The notes below the pieces were generated by a model. That model saw only the letters and a list, made by a program, of their open reading frames with translations, did no database searches and was not told the origin of the DNA. From a virus: a DNA stretch of 23,746 nt. The stretch is taken from positions 1-23,746 of the IMG/VR virus record IMGVR_UViG_3300032073_000252, one strand, 5' to 3'. How positions within the stretch are numbered: the first letter of the stretch is position 1; each line of letters opens with the position of its first letter. The position numbers and the translations under genes were made by a program. Below are positions 7,214-15,086 of this stretch, one piece after another.

Positions 7214-7756
7214 ATGGCTAATTTTAATACAGATGTAAATGTTATACCAGACAGAGGAGTTTCCACTAGTCAAACGGCTCGTGTATACAAAGCTACTTAT
7301 GGAGATGGATATGAGCAAAGAGTAGCGGCAGGAATTAATAACCTGCCAGAAGAATGGAAACTAACCTGGAAAGGTAGAACCGTAAACGATGCTAATAAGA
7401 TAATTAAATTTTTGGAAGACCACGCCGGAGTGACTGCATTTGACTGGTATCCACCAGATACAGAAATATCTAGTACTACTACTAGTGCGGCAACAAATAA
7501 ACTAATAGATACATCTCAGATATTTACTAATAGACTTTTAAATCAGACTGTTACTGACCAAGGGTCTAACACAGCAACAATTACGGCAATAGATAGCACT
7601 ACTCAATTAACTCTTAGTGCAGATTTAATGGCTAATAATGAAAACTATACTATATACCCTAATAAAAAATATAAATGTGAAAAATGGTCTACTACTATAC
7701 CATTTTCTGGGTATAGGACTGTAAGTGCAACTTTTGTTAAGGTATTCGAACCATAA
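7214..7756 (+). CDS. M: Minor tail protein, lambda M-like, with inserted beta module
   Basis: Tail tip component that assembles with L, K, I and J. The conserved frame of the family is visible in two pieces: residues 24-81 (VYKATYGDGYEQR, EEWKLTWKGRT, AFDWYPP) and residues 152-180 (KYKCEKWS, SGYRTVSATFVKVFEP). Between them, about residues 82-150, is an extra Thr-rich stretch with NKLIDTSQIFTNRLLNQTV, ATITAIDSTTQLTLSADLM and ENYTIY. It reads like a small self-contained beta module that I recall in other phage structural proteins. Without it the protein would be about lambda gpM size (109). The stop overlaps the L-like start (TAATG). Confidence 0.88.
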   Translation: MANFNTDVNVIPDRGVSTSQTARVYKATYGDGYEQRVAAGINNLPEEWKLTWKGRTVNDANKIIKFLEDHAGVTAFDWYPPDTEISSTTTSAATNKLIDTSQIFTNRLLNQTVTDQGSNTATITAIDSTTQLTLSADLMANNENYTIYPNKKYKCEKWSTTIPFSGYRTVSATFVKVFEP

Positions 7757-8679
7757 TGTCAGATAAGATTATAAGTGATATAAACGGCTTAGAGCCTGGG
7801 CATATAATAGACTTATTTGAGCTAGATATGTCAACGGGTACAGCATCCGCTTCTCAGCCAATATTCAGATGGCACTCTGGACAAAATGAAAATTTGCAAG
7901 AAATAGTTTGGCAGGGTAATAGATACTCTGCTTTTCCTATTGTAGCAGAAGGTTTTGAATTTTCTGGAAAAGGAGCTATACCTAGACCTAGTTTAACAGT
8001 AGCTAACATAACTACTTTGCTAACTTCAGTTATAGAGTCGTATGATGATTTAATCGGCTCTAAAGTTATACGAAAAAGAACCTTTGCAAAGTACTTAGAT
8101 GCTTATTGTTACTTAGGGGGTTATCCTTCTGGAGGAGTATGTAGTGGCGAGTCGGGAGGAGCACCTTTTAGTTTAAGTAAATCCGATTGTTTAGACTCTA
8201 CAAAAAATGGAGGTGTAGGTACTTGGACTGCATATACAGAAGCTACTTGTGGTAGTTGTAGTGTTGCAGGGCACACTACTAAAACAGCTTGTGAATCTAA
8301 TTCTGGTACTTGGACTCAAGGTATATGGTACGCAAGTGCTTTAGCGGATGATACCGCAGACTTTGCTGAAGAAATATGGTATGTTGACAGAAAGGCGTTA
8401 GAAACTAGAACCCATATACAGTTTGAATTAACTGCAGCACATGATGTTCAAGGAGTTAAATTACCGGCTAGATCAGTTATTGCTAACTTATGCCCTTGGA
8501 AATACAAAGGTGTAGAGTGTGGCTACTCTGGAACTAATTATTTTGATATAGATAATAATACTACTAATAGTGCGGGAGATGTCTGTGCAAAAAACTTTAG
8601 AGCATGCGAACTTAGATTTCCAGAACCTCAAGAGATACCTTTTGGAGGGTTTCCTGGAGCTGGCATGAATATGGGGTAG
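7756..8679 (+). CDS. L: Minor tail protein, lambda L-like iron-sulfur protein, with Cys-rich insertion
   Basis: Tail tip protein between tube and J hub. The C-terminal part holds four cysteines, C246-x8-C255 and C277-x6-C284, in the spacing of the [4Fe-4S] ligands of lambda gpL; CPWKYKGVEC is the hallmark. The N-terminal domain (GHIIDLFELDMS, FRWHSG, FEFSGKGAIPRPSLTVAN) and the segment EIWYVDRKALETRTHIQFEL are also family-typical. At 307 residues it is about 75 longer than lambda gpL (232). The excess lies between KRTFAKYLDA (to residue 116) and about residue 196, a stretch with six extra cysteines (118, 129, 145, 165, 168, 179) and two GTW motifs. That insertion is unusual and its role is unknown. 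Confidence 0.92.
   Translation: MSDKIISDINGLEPGHIIDLFELDMSTGTASASQPIFRWHSGQNENLQEIVWQGNRYSAFPIVAEGFEFSGKGAIPRPSLTVANITTLLTSVIESYDDLIGSKVIRKRTFAKYLDAYCYLGGYPSGGVCSGESGGAPFSLSKSDCLDSTKNGGVGTWTAYTEATCGSCSVAGHTTKTACESNSGTWTQGIWYASALADDTADFAEEIWYVDRKALETRTHIQFELTAAHDVQGVKLPARSVIANLCPWKYKGVECGYSGTNYFDIDNNTTNSAGDVCAKNFRACELRFPEPQEIPFGGFPGAGMNMG
8140..8313 (+). repeat. Two Cys-GTW mini-modules inserted in the L-like protein
   Basis: The second unit (8257-8313, residues 168-186) reads C-x10-C-x4-GTW and starts CSVAGHTTKTAC. The first unit (8140-8226, residues 129-157) is a looser version, C-x15-C-x9-GTW. The J copy at 10843 has the same spacing and the related start CSIGGHRRKDNC. The module lies outside the conserved L framework. 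It is a recurrent protein-level motif, not a DNA repeat: the codons differ widely. Confidence 0.8.
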
Positions 8680-8682
8680 AAA

Positions 8683-9399
8683 ATGGAAGATACTACCTTA
8701 GAAGAATTTAGAACTCATACTAAAGAAGAGTACCCTAGAGAAGCCTGCGGGTTTGTAATAGTAACTTCTAGAGGTAGAGAGCAGTATCATAGGGCTAAAA
8801 ATGCTGCTGAAAACTCAGAAGAACACTTTATTATAGACCCTGTAAGTTACGCAGATGCAGAAGATAGAGGTGAGATTATTGGAATATGTCACTCTCATCC
8901 AGATGCTACTAGCGAACCTTCGGAGGCAGATAAGGTATCTTGTGAAACCACGAATAAGCCTTGGCATATACTTAGTTGGCCTTTAAACCAACTTTATAGT
9001 TGGGAGCCTGATGGGTATGAGGCACCACTTATTGGCAGACACTTTTCGCATGGAGTCCTAGATTGTTACACATTAGTTAGAGATTATTACAAACGAGAAT
9101 TAAATATTAATTTGAAAAATTATTTTCGAGAAGATGAGTGGTGGGAGAAAGGAGAGAATCTCTACGTAGATAATTTTAAAGAGCAAGGTTTTGTCCAGAT
9201 ACTTGATGAAAATGATTTGCAAAAATATGATACATTTTTGATAAAATTAGTTTCATCTGTGCCTAACCATGCCGCAATTTATATTGGAAACGACACTATT
9301 TTACATCATGTTTATGGTAGGTTATCAAATAGACAAATGTACGGAGGGTACTGGCGTAAGCATACCACACATCATTTAAGGCACGAATCATTATGTTAA
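8683..9399 (+). CDS. K: Tail tip peptidase, JAMM + NlpC/P60 (lambda K-like)
   Basis: Two-domain tail assembly enzyme. The first domain is a JAMM/Mov34-type metalloprotease: E20 in PREACGF, then H70-S-H72-x7-S80-x2-D83, a complete zinc-binding signature. The second is NlpC/P60-like: C128 in HGVLDCYTLVRDYY, H196 in PNHAAIYIG, and a His pair at 208-209. All catalytic residues are present, so both domains may be active; in lambda this protein is needed for tail tip maturation and may help cell wall entry. The length (238) matches the family. It begins three bases after the L-like stop and overlaps the I-like gene by seven bases. Confidence 0.93.
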   Translation: MEDTTLEEFRTHTKEEYPREACGFVIVTSRGREQYHRAKNAAENSEEHFIIDPVSYADAEDRGEIIGICHSHPDATSEPSEADKVSCETTNKPWHILSWPLNQLYSWEPDGYEAPLIGRHFSHGVLDCYTLVRDYYKRELNINLKNYFREDEWWEKGENLYVDNFKEQGFVQILDENDLQKYDTFLIKLVSSVPNHAAIYIGNDTILHHVYGRLSNRQMYGGYWRKHTTHHLRHESLC

Positions 9400-10013
9400 A
9401 GAAAGTTATACTATACGGTGAGTTAGCAGAAAAGTACGGTAAAAGCTGGAGCTTAGACGTTAGTTCACCCTCAGAAGCAGTAAGAGCTTTATGTGCAAAT
9501 AACCCGGGATTCAAAAGTTTTCTAGCAACATCGCAAGATAGAGGTGTCGGTTATAAGGTAATGGTTGGAAAAACTTACCTACAAAACCAAAATGAAATTT
9601 ACAACCCTTCAGGTAGACAAGATATAAAAATTATACCTGTAGTACTTGGTGCTAAGAAAGATGGATTAGCAGCTATATTACTAGGAGCAGCTTTAATTTA
9701 TTTTAGTGGCGGGCTGGCTACGGCTGCCGTTACTGGAGCTACTGCTGCCGGAGCTAGTGCTTCTGCTGCTGCTACAATAGGAACAATGGTAAGTGGTGCT
9801 GCAATGAACATAGGAGTAGGTTTAATTAAGGGAGGAATAGCACAAGCTTTAGCCACTACTCCAGAAGAAATAAAGGATGACCAGAATTATTCGTTTAACG
9901 GAGCTGCAAATACTGTAGTACAGGGAGTACCTGTGCCTATTTGTTATGGTCAGTTAATGATTGGGGGAGCAGTAATAAGCTCAGGTGTAACATCAGAGAA
10001 CTATAATCCATAG
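9393..10013 (+). CDS. I: Tail assembly protein, lambda I-like
   Basis: Tail tip assembly factor working with K and J. The N-terminal 85 residues form a beta-grasp (ubiquitin-like) domain, LKKVILYGELAEKYG to IKIIPVVLGAKK. A long Gly/Ala-rich hydrophobic region follows (about residues 90-150, LAAILLGAALIYFSGG onwards). The C-terminal tail has VVQGVPVPICYGQLMIGGAV, the signature end of this family, where a segment preceding J is typical. The length of 206 is near lambda gpI (223). The start ATG lies inside the end of the K-like gene, pointing to translational coupling. Confidence 0.9.
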   Translation: MLKKVILYGELAEKYGKSWSLDVSSPSEAVRALCANNPGFKSFLATSQDRGVGYKVMVGKTYLQNQNEIYNPSGRQDIKIIPVVLGAKKDGLAAILLGAALIYFSGGLATAAVTGATAAGASASAAATIGTMVSGAAMNIGVGLIKGGIAQALATTPEEIKDDQNYSFNGAANTVVQGVPVPICYGQLMIGGAVISSGVTSENYNP

Positions 10014-10020
10014 GAATATT

Positions 10021-12417
10021 ATGAGTGAACAAGATTACATTATAGGTTACGGCGGCGGAAAGAATGGTAAAGGGTCTGGAGGTCAAGAAGACCAAAATAC
10101 TTTATTTTCTACGGCTAAGGGTAGAGTAGTAGACTTGTTATCTGAGGGAGAAATTAGTGGTTTGCTAAATGGCAAAAAATCTATTTTTATAGACAACACT
10201 CCTTTACAGGATGCTACTGGAACTGATAATTTTGAAGGAGTTTCTTATACTACAAGAGTGGGTACTAATAACCAAACACACATTCCAGGATTTGCAGGTA
10301 CCGAAACTACTACTGCGGTAAATGCTGTAGTTAATAACGGTAGCCCTATAGTTAGAACTTTTACTTCCGCTATAGCAGACGCAGTCCGAGTAGGTATATG
10401 GGTTCCAGCTTTAACAAATGCTGATAATGATGAGGGTAACATTCATGGCTCTTCTGTTTCTTTTAAAATAGAATTAGATAGAAATAGTTCCGGATCCTGG
10501 GTAACTGTATTTAATGGTAGTATTAGTGGTAAGACTACTCAAAGGTTTGATAAGACTTATAGATTTGATATACCTACTTCCTTTAAAACAGCAGGGTTCA
10601 CACAAATTTCAATAAAAGTCACTAGAATCTCTGCGGATGAAACTAGTGCTAAAATAGTAAACACTATTTATTTTGGTGACCATACTATAATTGTAGATAA
10701 TAAGTTAACTTACCCAAATAGCGCTTTAGTAGCAATGCAATTTAATGCTGAGCAATTTGACTCTATACCTACTAGGGGTTACGAGGTAAAAGGAGTAAAA
10801 GTTAAAGTGCCAGCAAATTATACATCTTATGACCCCGGACATTGTTCTATTGGTGGACATAGAAGAAAGGATAATTGTGTAGCTGCCGGAGGTACCTGGA
10901 CAGGAACTACTGTAGGAACAAATTTGTATAATGGTTCATGGAATGGAACATTTACTACTGCTTGGACGTGTAATCCTGCTTGGATTTTATATGACTTATG
11001 TACTGAAGAAAGATACGGGTTAGGTAAATGGCTAACTACTTCACAACTAGATAAATGGGCGTTATACGAAATAGCAAAATACTGTGATGCCGTAGATAAT
11101 AGTGGTAATTTTGTAGGTGTAGATGATGGTTGGGGAAATAAAGAAGCAAGATTTACTTGTAACTTATACTTACAATCTGCAGAAGAGGCATACAAAGTAA
11201 TAAATGATATTGCAGCAGTATTTAGAGGTTTAACTTATTGGCAAGAAGGCATGATAACTCCTGTTCAAGATGCTCCTAAAGACCCTGTAATGACTTTTGG
11301 AGATGCTAATGTTATTGATGGTCAATTTACTTACGAAGGTTCGTCTAGAAAGCAAAGACATAATGTTGCTAAAGTTTCTTGGAATAACCCTGAAGATTTG
11401 TATAAACAAAATGTAGAATACGTAGAAGATGCAGATGGCATTGCTAATGCTAATAATCAAATATTTTCAAAAGATATTAGAGCCTTAGGCTGCACATCTC
11501 AATCTCAAGCTCGTAGAGTAGGAAAGTGGTTATTGCTTACCGAAAGACATGAAACCGAAATATGTACTTTTAAAACAGGAATGGAAGGAGCGGGTATTCG
11601 TCCAGGTGATATAGTAAAAATAGCTGATTCAGGTAGAGCCGGTAGAAGGTATGGGGGTAGAGTAGCAGCAGGTAGTACAGTTAATATGATACAACTAGAT
11701 AGTGCTACTCCTGTAACAAATGGAAAAATATATAAACTATCCCTACTAAATACGGAATCTGCCTGTGTACGAGATGGAGTAAAACAGTCTGAAAGTACTC
11801 AAGAAGCGTGTTTAAACGCTCATATAGATAATGAATGGAAGCCGTATACTTGGATAGAACAAAGAGATACCACAGCTGTTAGTGTAACAGAAAATGTAAC
11901 TCAGCTAGGTATTCCTACTGCTTTTACTAACGCTCCTACTACTACATATATGTGGATATTAGAGGAAATGGGTTCTGTAGAAGCTCAAGACTTTAGAATA
12001 TTAAGTGTAAGAGAAAGTGAGCCTAATATCTATGAAATATCAGCTTTAGAGTATCATCAGGCAAAATATGACGCTATAGAGAGTAATATAGAATTTTCTT
12101 CCAAGTCTACAAGTGATTTACCCGATCCGTCTGCAACAGTTCCTGAGCCTAGAGATTTAGAAGTTACTGAGGAATTATATACAGATTCAAGAAATTCTGT
12201 CAGAAACAGAGCAACCTTTAGCTGGAAGCCTCCGTATACAGGAGGAACTAGTACTCTATACCCTTATGTAGCTTCTTATTATGTGGAGTGGAGAAGAACG
12301 GCACCTACGATAACAAACTGGAACTCTTTAGGAGAAACAACTTCTACTAGTATAAATATAGATGACGCTCCAGCAGGGAACTTAGAGTTCCGAGTTAAAA
12401 CTAGAAGGATTTATTAA
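10021..12417 (+). CDS. J: Central tail tip hub protein, lambda J-like N-terminal part (split gene)
   Basis: Central receptor-contacting hub at the tail tip. Family marks are a Gly-rich leader, then TAKGRVVDLLSEGEISGLLN, YPNSALVAMQFNAEQFDSIP, GYEVKGVKVKVPANY, NPAWILYDLCTEERYGLGKW, KWALYEIAKYCD, and GIRPGDIVKIADSGRAGRR. Residues about 706-798 form one FN3 domain. At 798 residues it is shorter than lambda J (1132). It stops inside what is normally one continuous protein: the next gene begins with the expected continuation (YSKYATKTATVTGKS). Two Cys insertions are present. The first (C275-x10-C286-x4-GTW293) sits right after YDP, in a loop normally bridging directly to the GTF strand. The second is degenerate (C582, C597, W606). 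Confidence 0.93.
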   Translation: MSEQDYIIGYGGGKNGKGSGGQEDQNTLFSTAKGRVVDLLSEGEISGLLNGKKSIFIDNTPLQDATGTDNFEGVSYTTRVGTNNQTHIPGFAGTETTTAVNAVVNNGSPIVRTFTSAIADAVRVGIWVPALTNADNDEGNIHGSSVSFKIELDRNSSGSWVTVFNGSISGKTTQRFDKTYRFDIPTSFKTAGFTQISIKVTRISADETSAKIVNTIYFGDHTIIVDNKLTYPNSALVAMQFNAEQFDSIPTRGYEVKGVKVKVPANYTSYDPGHCSIGGHRRKDNCVAAGGTWTGTTVGTNLYNGSWNGTFTTAWTCNPAWILYDLCTEERYGLGKWLTTSQLDKWALYEIAKYCDAVDNSGNFVGVDDGWGNKEARFTCNLYLQSAEEAYKVINDIAAVFRGLTYWQEGMITPVQDAPKDPVMTFGDANVIDGQFTYEGSSRKQRHNVAKVSWNNPEDLYKQNVEYVEDADGIANANNQIFSKDIRALGCTSQSQARRVGKWLLLTERHETEICTFKTGMEGAGIRPGDIVKIADSGRAGRRYGGRVAAGSTVNMIQLDSATPVTNGKIYKLSLLNTESACVRDGVKQSESTQEACLNAHIDNEWKPYTWIEQRDTTAVSVTENVTQLGIPTAFTNAPTTTYMWILEEMGSVEAQDFRILSVRESEPNIYEISALEYHQAKYDAIESNIEFSSKSTSDLPDPSATVPEPRDLEVTEELYTDSRNSVRNRATFSWKPPYTGGTSTLYPYVASYYVEWRRTAPTITNWNSLGETTSTSINIDDAPAGNLEFRVKTRRIY
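10843..10899 (+). repeat. Cys-GTW mini-module in J hub
   Basis: Residues 275-293 of the J-like protein read C-x10-C-x4-GTW, starting CSIGGHRRKDNC. Spacing is identical to the L copy at 8257 and the FN3-protein copy at 14247. It interrupts the conserved loop between VPANYTSYDP and NGSWNGTF of J-type hubs, which points to an insertion. Confidence 0.8.
11764..11838 (+). repeat. Degenerate second Cys module in J hub
   Basis: Residues 582-606 read C-x14-C-x8-W, with ACVRDGVKQS and STQEACLNA around the cysteines. It is looser than the other copies and lacks the GTW glycine. It sits where J-like proteins normally continue directly from a KIYKLSLL-type strand into a short loop. I regard it as a diverged relative, not certain. 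Confidence 0.5.
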
Positions 12418-15086
12418 TGGCATCAAATATTTACTCTAAATACGCTACTAAGACTGCTACCGTCACAGGTAAGAGTACTAAACCTGCAAATATAACATTT
12501 AATACTCCTGTAGTACATTCTGCTACTGGTGGTATTACATTAAGTTGGAACAAAATAACAACGACTTTAGATTTTAAAGAGTATGTTGTGCAACTTTCTC
12601 CCAATGGAGTCTGGGATTATACTGGTAACACCGAAATATTTAGAGGTTTAGGACTAACACATTTACATACTGCAGCAAGCATTACTCCAGGAGTAAAAAC
12701 TTTTTTAATAAAAGCAGTAGATACTACTGGTAACTACTCGGAAACAGCAGGTAGTACTACAGTTACAATTGCTGCACCTTCTTGGACACTATCAGGCGGT
12801 AATACTCAAGTAATAACTCATGTAATTAATGATGGACAGATGACAATTACTTGGCCTACTCCTGCATCAGAGCAGTTTGTAGTAGAAAGTTACCAAGTAA
12901 AATTTAGGGCAGGAAATAGTTCAACGGCATGGGGTGGTGCAACAGCAACAGGACATGGAACAACAGAGGGAGTTTATAGTGCTACTAATTCTTTAACTTT
13001 TCCTGTAACATGGGGTCCAGGAGATGAGGGGGACGGAGACTCGTATAGAACGTTTATTATTTCTGCAAAAGATTCATTGGGAAATATATCTTCCAACCAG
13101 ATTAGCAAATCTATAGAAATTGACCCGCCTAGTACTCTAAATGTAGCACATCAATTTACTACTAGTGAAGAAGGAACTAAAGTGGATGCTAGAGTATTTT
13201 GGGCTTCTCCTACTATTGGGGATTCCCAATTGCCTATATCTCACTATAAAGTATTTTACAAAGATTATAAAACTGGTAGTTCTGCACCTACTTTTTCTAG
13301 TGCGGGTAGTGCCTATCTTAATGGTTTGGGTACAACAGAATTTAAACAAGAGGTAGATTGGGGTCCGTCTAAGACTAACTCTAACGGAGCTATAACCGCC
13401 TCTTCAGGTACTTCGAATGATATTAGAAGGTACTGGGTTGTTCCAGTAGACTTAGCAGGAAACTGGGGTATATCCTATGATGGCGGAGAAAGTGATTTTA
13501 TCCCCGAAATAGAAGATGTAACAGTAACAAGACCTAATAGTATAACAGGGTTGAGTACAACTGATTACTCTACAAAATCATCTAATGGTGTTGTAGAGGT
13601 AAATTGGACACTACCAGTTCCTACTACTGCACCTATTACCTCTATAAGAGTATTTTGGGAACTTCCTACATTTTTATCTTCTACGAATAAACTAACTTCA
13701 ACTAGAGGTGAAAAGAATTCTAAATCTGGTGCGGCTACTAAGTATTCAACTCCAGTAAACTGGGGTCCAAGTAATGGTTCAGGAGAAACTACTAGGGTTA
13801 TTTATTTTGTAGCTTATGATTCTATAGGCAACATATCTGTACCTACAGGTGTATCTATTCCTGTACAAAACCCTCCTCAAGTTACTTCTACTTCATTATC
13901 CGCTCAAACTGTTGATAATAACGTAATATTAAGATGGTCAGATCCCACATCTACTTCTTTACCTATAGCATCTTATGATATTTATAGATGCCCAGCATCG
14001 GGAACTTGTACTATTTCTGACTACTTAAGTACTTCAGAATATATTACTAATGTTGGTGGAACTAATACTTACTCATTCTTTGAAACAGCGGCAGGAACTT
14101 ATAAATATTTTGTAAGAACTAAAGACTTGGCAGGAAATTTTTCTACTCCACAAGCTATTTCAACTAGTGTTAGTGAGCCTAGAGACTTTGCTGTATTAAC
14201 AGATGTTACTTCTAAGTATAATACTACTGCTTTAACGGCAGGATACTGTAGTGGGGCGGTAGCAGCAAATGAAACTGCTTGTGAAAACGCAGGGGGAAAC
14301 TGGATAGAAGGTTCGAAAGCTCAGTGGACAAATATCGAAGACGAAAGTGACACAACCGCAGTACTGCCTGTTAATACTACAGAAACATGGCAAGAACATT
14401 TTGTAGGAACTGGTAGTGTATCAAGCCCACAATACGCAACTCCACAAGCACAAGTAAGTGCAGGATTTGAGTACTTTATTATACCTAAAAATACCGCTAC
14501 TTACTATCAGTCGTGGGACTTAGGCACTACTCAAGCTAGTGCAACCGTAACACTAATAACAACAGATGAGAATTTTGGACCTACAATAGCAAGTCCTCAA
14601 AACGTAAGTGCTACACCAGAAATATTTCTATCTAATACTGAAACTCACTATGAGCAAGATATTGATAATAATGCAAACTGGACAAGTATGGGTTCAGGTA
14701 ATGTATCAGCCCTAGGTAGTAACTTTAGATATGTTAAAGTAAAAATAACATACAGTGGTGGAGGAAATGGAGGATTTAAGAAAATTAGCCAACAAAGAGT
14801 TACACTTAACTTAGCAACTGTGAGGGACCAATCGGCTGGTCCAGTTACTATAAGTACTTTGACCGGCACACCTACAAATGGAACAAGGGTTACTTTTAAC
14901 AAAACATTTCAAGATGTTACAAGTATACAAGTATCCCCTAAATATAAGAGCAGCGGTAATCAAAATACCGCAATTTATGATTTTACAGACGTGGCTAACC
15001 CCACACATTTTGATGTCTACCTATTAGACGCAACAGACGGTTCGTATGCGTTAGGAGACTTTACATGGCAAGCAACAGGAGTTTAA
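12417..15086 (+). CDS. FN3-repeat tail tip protein, C-terminal part of split J
   Basis: Probably the outer, host-facing portion of the tail tip fibre. The ATG overlaps the J stop (TAATG), and the first residues (IYSKYATKTATVTGKS) match what usually follows the first FN3 in intact J proteins. Five FN3-like units follow at about residues 25-118, 119-236, 237-371, 372-485 and 486-587. Each ends in a D-x-x-GN-[SYW] turn (AVDTTGNYS, SAKDSLGNIS, PVDLAGNWG, VAYDSIGNIS, RTKDLAGNFS); units 2-4 share V-x-WGP. The C-terminal 300 residues carry ATVTLITT- and LPVNTTETWQEHF-type segments of J tails. A Cys module (C611-x10-C622-x4-GNW629) is inserted there. The protein has 889 residues. Confidence 0.85.
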   Translation: MASNIYSKYATKTATVTGKSTKPANITFNTPVVHSATGGITLSWNKITTTLDFKEYVVQLSPNGVWDYTGNTEIFRGLGLTHLHTAASITPGVKTFLIKAVDTTGNYSETAGSTTVTIAAPSWTLSGGNTQVITHVINDGQMTITWPTPASEQFVVESYQVKFRAGNSSTAWGGATATGHGTTEGVYSATNSLTFPVTWGPGDEGDGDSYRTFIISAKDSLGNISSNQISKSIEIDPPSTLNVAHQFTTSEEGTKVDARVFWASPTIGDSQLPISHYKVFYKDYKTGSSAPTFSSAGSAYLNGLGTTEFKQEVDWGPSKTNSNGAITASSGTSNDIRRYWVVPVDLAGNWGISYDGGESDFIPEIEDVTVTRPNSITGLSTTDYSTKSSNGVVEVNWTLPVPTTAPITSIRVFWELPTFLSSTNKLTSTRGEKNSKSGAATKYSTPVNWGPSNGSGETTRVIYFVAYDSIGNISVPTGVSIPVQNPPQVTSTSLSAQTVDNNVILRWSDPTSTSLPIASYDIYRCPASGTCTISDYLSTSEYITNVGGTNTYSFFETAAGTYKYFVRTKDLAGNFSTPQAISTSVSEPRDFAVLTDVTSKYNTTALTAGYCSGAVAANETACENAGGNWIEGSKAQWTNIEDESDTTAVLPVNTTETWQEHFVGTGSVSSPQYATPQAQVSAGFEYFIIPKNTATYYQSWDLGTTQASATVTLITTDENFGPTIASPQNVSATPEIFLSNTETHYEQDIDNNANWTSMGSGNVSALGSNFRYVKVKITYSGGGNGGFKKISQQRVTLNLATVRDQSAGPVTISTLTGTPTNGTRVTFNKTFQDVTSIQVSPKYKSSGNQNTAIYDFTDVANPTHFDVYLLDATDGSYALGDFTWQATGV
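14247..14303 (+). repeat. Cys-GNW mini-module in the FN3 tail tip protein
   Basis: Residues 611-629 read C-x10-C-x4-GNW, preceded by Tyr and followed by an acidic residue. Spacing equals that of the L and J copies. It lies just after the fifth FN3 unit, between SKYNTTALT and KAQWTNIEDE, at the start of the C-terminal region. Confidence 0.75.

Follow-up and report, generated by a model that had tools for sequence, protein, structure and literature searches.

A cysteine unit of about 20 residues in loops of phage tail proteins, and its apparent kinship with pieces of T4 gp8 and gp10

The IMG/VR virus record IMGVR_UViG_3300032073_000252, whose whole 23.7-kb stretch is referred to here as the window (all positions are given on the whole window), holds a lambda-like siphophage tail region, with genes for the tape measure, gpM, gpL, gpK, gpI, gpJ and a fibronectin-III (FN3)-type tip protein. 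Three of these proteins, the gpL-like, the gpJ-like and the FN3-type protein, carry a short unit of the spacing C-x10-C-x4-G-[TN]-W, which we call the Cys unit. Sequence comparison indicates that the Cys unit is related to pieces of gp8 and of domain 3 of gp10 of phage T4, where it stands, unnamed, in two solved baseplate structures. We consider it probable that the unit is an autonomous, disulfide-closed knob, which is spread by short-tract recombination and is tolerated in surface loops.

The Cys units of the window

The three carriers are the gpL-like hub protein (7756..8679, + strand; PF05100 Phage_tail_L, 1.5e-58; HDI and a C-terminal domain), the gpJ-like central fibre protein (10021..12417, + strand; phrog_31, 2.7e-226; compared with the lambda J and F2-pyocin structures) and the fibronectin-III-like tip protein (12417..15086, + strand), for which relatives were found only in kindred contigs. 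The gpJ-like protein matches phrog_31 over nearly its full length, and also matches Phage-tail_3 and FNIII-A_GpJ, with hub domains, which places it in the lambda gpJ family. A six-frame scan of the window has returned exactly three matches to C-x10-C-x4-G-[TN]-W and no fourth, at residues 168-186 of gpL, 275-293 of gpJ and 611-629 of the FN3 protein, exactly as an earlier, sequence-only reading of this DNA had placed them; as 20,000 residue shufflings of the three proteins gave a mean of 0.0001 matches (2 shuffles with any), the three units are not due to chance.

In gpL, the canonical unit CSVAGHTTKTACESNSGTW (C168, C179, W186; 8257..8313, + strand) is located between C165 and W191. The sequence-only reading had counted a single unit in this protein, but we have found three, which are read as nested: an outer unit, C118 ... 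C165 ... G-I-W191 (8107..8328, + strand; C118, C165 and W191 invariant in 27 relatives), appears to enclose both inner unit 1, which has a long loop (C129-x15-C145-x9-G-T-W157; 8140..8226, + strand; C129, C145 and W157 invariant in relatives) and lies in the loop of the outer unit, and the canonical unit, which lies between C165 and W191. This reading is based on two relatives (L357 and L339), where the second half of the outer unit is YTESTCEAAGGIW or YTSTSCETAGGTW, i.e. a canonical second half, and the 168-186 unit is absent. Of the ten cysteines of the protein, four (C246, C255, C277 and C284) align with the iron-sulfur (Fe-S) cysteines of lambda gpL (C173/C182/C205/C212; PMC10721106), while the other six are located between residues 118 and 191.

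In gpJ, the canonical unit CSIGGHRRKDNCVAAGGTW (10843..10899, + strand), an exact match, is absent from the F2-pyocin fibre and from lambda gpJ; at this position (site 1), 31 residues stand in place of 2 of the F2-pyocin fibre. A second, relaxed unit, C582-x14-C597-x8-W606 (11764..11838, + strand), has its two cysteines and its tryptophan invariant, is an insertion hot spot in relatives and, by alignment to lambda J (window residue 575 corresponding to lambda residue 523), falls in the beta-sandwich that is inserted in HDIV (lambda J 483-569; PMC10721106). The canonical unit of the FN3 protein, CSGAVAANETACENAGGNW (14247..14303, + strand), is likewise an exact match. The sequence-only reading had assigned all three units to loops outside the conserved family framework; this holds for gpL, where the alignment brackets the insert between lambda residues 121 and 135 (window residues 122 and 208), and for site 1 of gpJ, while for the FN3 protein no relative that lacks the unit was found. 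The FN3 protein also contains, at residues 531-552, the stretch CTISDYLSTSEYITNVGGTNTY (C531...Y542...GGT; 14007..14072, + strand), which, on a reading of the letters only, weakly resembles a decayed Cys unit with its second cysteine turned to tyrosine.

Kinship with T4 baseplate proteins and predicted fold

A phmmer search of the PDB with a single unit gives chance matches only. When the gpL unit is compared by tblastn, the matches are weak, but almost without exception they point to gp8 from T4-like phages; the consensus of environmental units reaches gp8 of KVP40-type phages with E values down to 6e-4, and has matches in 1,424 records. Sixty-three unit fragments were also scanned one by one against 24,736 Pfam families (the rows are not mutually independent): the only repeated matches are Gp10_D3 (35 of the 63 fragments, best 5.4e-6) and Phage-Gp8 (31 of the 63, best 2.5e-5). 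Single fragments match phrog_977, i.e. gp8 (40), and phrog_958, i.e. gp10 (11), in PHROGs, while the scan of NCBIfam has returned nothing notable, and a family for the unit itself is found in none of the three collections. Within the window, the FN3 protein matches Gp10_D3 at residues 603-650 (E 0.0029), and gpJ matches phrog_977 at residues 251-306 only (E 0.0037). The tblastn, Pfam and PHROGs results thus agree that the unit has sequence in common with the two T4 proteins beyond the spacing of its cysteines.

In T4 gp8 (PF09215, phrog_977; PDB IDs 1N7Z and 5IV5), the corresponding piece, CSIASLTDKDECLKLGGKWT, is located around residues 138-163 and shares with the unit the pattern C-x10-C-x4-G-x-W-T, the CSI start and the lysine at position 9; in domain 3 of T4 gp10 (PF22670 Gp10_D3, phrog_958), the piece CVGADSDDEVECSVLGGTW shares the pattern C-x10-C-x4-G-T-W with its flanks. 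The likeness is limited to these pieces: gpL, gpJ and the FN3 protein are not homologues of gp8, and the whole gp8 fold (PF09215) is not matched in the host proteins, where the unit alone matches; the Gp10_D3 profile is 122 positions long, with the Cys stretch alone in common. The sequence-only reading had named no known counterpart for the unit, a view that is superseded by these two relatives, both of which have solved structures. A search of the open literature, whose coverage was incomplete, has found no paper with a named motif that matches the unit.

In phage Milano, gp125 and gp127 are gp8-fold proteins without any cysteine (PMC10811340), and the unit is therefore dispensable to the gp8 fold. 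T4 gp8 was considered as the source of the unit and dropped, as the cysteine-less Milano proteins argue that the unit is an addition there too.

An AlphaFold2 model of a 44-residue gpL fragment, built with a cross-family alignment, reaches a predicted local distance difference test (pLDDT) score of 82-88 over the unit, and consists of a strand, a helix that carries Cys2 and a strand that carries the tryptophan. In the model of the whole gpL, residues 161-190 are the best-predicted part and show the strand-helix-strand elements of the fragment model; the rest of this model is too poor for a fold search, which was therefore conducted with the fragment alone. Among 350,542 PDB chains, Foldseek has returned one match, T4 gp8 (1N7Z), at 1.0 A over 25 columns with 40% identity, but at an E value of 3.1; among predicted viral structures, its named matches comprise, for instance, baseplate wedge proteins from Aeromonas phages. 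The unit does not have the fold of an immunoglobulin-like (Ig) or FN3 domain: it is a predicted strand-helix-strand of about 20 residues, and no Ig family occurs among its Pfam matches.

Spread, turnover and the explanations compared

A strict degenerate DNA pattern for C-x10-C-E-x2-G-G-T-W, scanned against IMG/VR, matches at least 120 stretches; the control, in which the same residues stand in reverse order, has 6 matches in the whole collection, none of which encodes the unit. Among the matches listed, the carriers form 22 groups after masking of the unit (23 by another route), a few of which are chance matches. PHROGs places carriers among head-closure Hc2 (L084), adaptor Ad2 (L056), baseplate wedge (L109) and tail fibre proteins (L073, L116), and J-like proteins form another group; the unit, described earlier as a decoration of the tail tip, does occur in tip proteins, but is not confined to them, being also present in neck, adaptor, baseplate and fibre proteins and in some exported-looking bacterial proteins. 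Three uncharacterised carrier families have no relative among isolated phages by tblastn, and a search of plasmids has returned no match. Four loci (L052, L069, L076, L121), being chance zinc-finger-like or short reading frames, were excluded from the unit alignment.

The GTDB genomes have given 78 matches in 257 billion bases, of which 13 score 4 or 5 of 5 on the secondary consensus positions, versus 98 of 120 viral matches among those listed; judging by these scores, most GTDB matches look like chance. The high-scoring carriers include a tail-tip protein (L167, PF09327), presumably from a prophage, and proteins with signal-peptide-like starts, some of which resemble multihaem cytochromes and one of which is a subtilase. 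In the GTDB loci L134, L160, L187, L182 and L177, the unit is located in bacterial proteins of exported appearance: the subtilase, whose match to the S8 domain encloses the unit, the proteins that resemble multihaem cytochromes, and proteins with pilin-like N-termini.

The gpL proteins of lambda, of the F2 pyocin and of Synechococcus phage S-H1 have no such insert, and in the relatives of the window it varies: the canonical unit is absent in L259, L298-L300 (proteins about 77-80% identical), L270 and L213-type relatives; in L333, L350-type relatives and L261-L263, units are located at another place of the loop. Inner unit 1 contains a different mini-domain of about 65 residues in L232-235 and L366, and a further Cys unit in L333, L350 and L261. 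A quick tree of the gpL framework, in which support is weak at many forks, implies a minimum of 3 changes (gain or loss) at one unit site and of 5 at the other. The clearest comparison is between L333 and L363, which share 97-100% identity in most of the 60-column blocks compared over 3.5 kb: L333 has one complete, extra in-frame unit (60 nucleotides) in gpL, which lies in a tract of 79-88% identity to L363, and this divergence of the tract suggests import by recombination, not simple deletion (we infer the direction). In gpJ, an extra tandem unit occurs in L246, L247, L248 and L279; relatives without it are 83-89% identical in their DNA. Cys units or another mini-domain have also entered the loop of the second gpJ unit, in L241, L244, L255, L266 and L272. 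The canonical site-1 unit of gpJ and the FN3 unit are fixed in close relatives; by this comparison, recent turnover appears limited to the gpL units and the extra gpJ units, and the loops of existing units appear to be recurrent insertion sites, where nested units arise. The earlier suggestion of a small mobile module is supported, most cleanly by the L333/L363 pair. Copies within one genome are no more alike than copies across genomes (5 pairs).

In the explanation that we prefer, the unit would fold autonomously as a mini-domain of some 20-25 residues, composed of a strand with Cys1, a loop, a short helix with Cys2, a Gly-Gly turn and a strand with the tryptophan; its internal disulfide would form once the virion is released, turning it into a rigid knob. 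Such a knob could be inserted in frame into loops that are presumably exposed on these virions, leaving the fold undisturbed, and could be transferred between phages as short protein-coding tracts by recombination (the direction and route being those that we consider plausible), so that knobs would come and go in the loops of proteins of the neck, tail tip, baseplate and fibres. The benefit is a guess and the weakest step: the knob might stiffen or shield exposed loops, or alter weak surface contacts.

Several observations weigh against this explanation. In the sequence search of the PDB, the profile by itself matches gp8 only weakly (E 0.16); the E value of the Foldseek match to 1N7Z is 3.1, and VIA-align gives no Z of 2 or more. 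The weakness of these fold and sequence statistics is due to the tiny size of the piece. The model of the whole gpL is of low quality (pLDDT 44.5), and several large carrier groups belong to no known family, so that their virion membership is putative. The disulfide is deduced from the sequences, and the bacterial cytoplasm is reducing. Finally, since the site-1 gpJ and FN3 units are fixed, not every copy can be recently mobile.

Of the alternatives, convergence, which the sequence-only reading had offered beside mobility, survives best, although we regard it as unlikely: short Cys loops of C-C-G-W spacing could arise repeatedly as a simple fold, and the unit is indeed only about 20 residues long, with relaxed units that vary in spacing. 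The alignment of 152 units, however, has revealed common residues beyond the Cys, Gly and Trp positions, i.e. S2, I/L3, Y/H6, K/Q9, E13, A15, G16 and T18, and the Pfam and PHROG matches are also in common.

Slightly less likely still are two further alternatives. According to the first, the cysteines serve as metal ligands or add to the Fe-S site of gpL, and form no disulfide; the four-Cys Fe-S site of gpL (PMC10721106) and the histidine at position 6 in 44 of the 152 units are in its favour, but tyrosine is commoner at this position (80 units), carriers with exactly two cysteines, both in the unit, exist (17 of the 120 viral carriers among the matches listed), and the Fe-S cysteines are separate and kept in relatives without the unit. 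A disulfide between Cys1 and Cys2 is most likely, as judged from the conservation pattern: a Cys-agnostic pattern, applied to loci that were fetched without reference to the unit, finds both cysteines kept in 27 of 27 matches, and the carriers with only two cysteines and the exported look of several bacterial carriers point the same way. The disulfide-closed loop that was surmised earlier is therefore probably correct; phage virions can hold extensive disulfides, as in Milano (PMC10811340).

According to the second, the units have long belonged to their host proteins and were inherited vertically with them, and the seeming mobility is loss only. The fixation of the gpJ site-1 and FN3 units in close relatives, and the presence of a gp8-type unit in about 1,400 phage records, would agree with this; on the other side, one type of unit occurs in about 20 unrelated families, the insert is missing from gpL of lambda, the pyocin and S-H1, units are located at different places of one loop, nested or in tandem, and the L333 unit stands in a diverged tract, as import predicts.

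An element that is mobile as DNA (transposon, homing or hairpin element) and in frame only by accident is very improbable: whole-unit in-frame insertions of 48-60 nucleotides do occur between close relatives, but these insertions have neither constant ends nor constant target sites and show no target duplication, the flanking tract is diverged too, and codons at the conserved Gly and Thr positions broadly follow the background while the DNA of the copies has diverged, as noted earlier, so that selection acts on the protein and the unit is a protein module.

Other mini-modules and the meaning of the unit

Between gpL and gpJ, the gpK-like protein (8683-9399) is a fusion of JAB-type and NlpC/P60 domains. 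Other small pieces resemble the Cys unit in their behaviour. The gpM-like protein has, at residues 86-149 approximately (7469-7660), a second, Cys-less exchangeable mini-module between FDWYPP and KYKCEKW, which reads TNKLIDTSQ..F......VTD...NTATITAIDSTTQLTLSADLM..NE.YTIY; modules of this type also occur in the gpJ loop (L255, L266, L270, L272) and in the gpL loop (L232-235, L249, L274, L366). In gpL of L363, L351, L359 and L364, a mini-domain ATATVSINGGGISTFTVTAGGSGYTN... is located in the Fe-S domain, between the second and third cysteines; L333, otherwise near-identical to L363, lacks it, and in L351 and L364 it holds a Cys unit itself. At residues 268-336 approximately of L015, the mini-module TITVDDTTNFPSTGKIIIGEEIISYTGKTSTTFTGCIRG has matches in numerous virion PHROGs with no relation to each other, and looks like another piece that several families have in common.

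It is an even question whether the Cys unit belongs to a repertoire of tiny exchangeable mini-domains that short-tract recombination moves between unrelated virion proteins, and that become inserted in each other as nested decorations, and whether this repertoire comprises at least four kinds (the Cys knob, NKLID...LTL...YTIY, TGKTSTTFTGC and a GGSGYT repeat module).

Ig-like domains are about 90-100 residues long and have the Ig fold. Promiscuous Ig-like and FN3 domains are found on phage virion proteins (Fraser et al. 2006, as cited in PMC10721106); like the Cys unit, they decorate unrelated virion proteins and are variably present, a likeness that the sequence-only reading had already seen, but the Cys unit differs from them in being a strand-helix-strand of about 20 residues, located inside loops and nested. 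The unit adds a new and very small form to this known theme. The shuffling of fragments in phage proteins (domain mosaicism), prominent in tail proteins, was defined by sequence in a large survey as the sharing of fragments of at least 50 residues (PMC10684548); the Cys unit is below this minimum and would remain uncounted in such a survey.

The unit is also a warning, as automatic labels of proteins from uncultured phages can rest on it alone: with the phrog_977 matches in L043, L124 and the gpJ of the window, a label such as 'baseplate wedge subunit' can mislead annotation. The mosaicism known in phages concerns whole domains; the exchanged piece here is about 20 residues long and has a recognisable predicted fold, so that very small protein pieces can serve as exchangeable building blocks of virus tails. 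The Cys unit offers a testable, tiny model for the tolerance of insertions, for loop hot spots and for the diversification of tail surfaces with assembly kept; if the repertoire described above is real, protein evolution would have a further layer at a scale smaller than the domain, which surveys with a 50-residue cut-off would miss.

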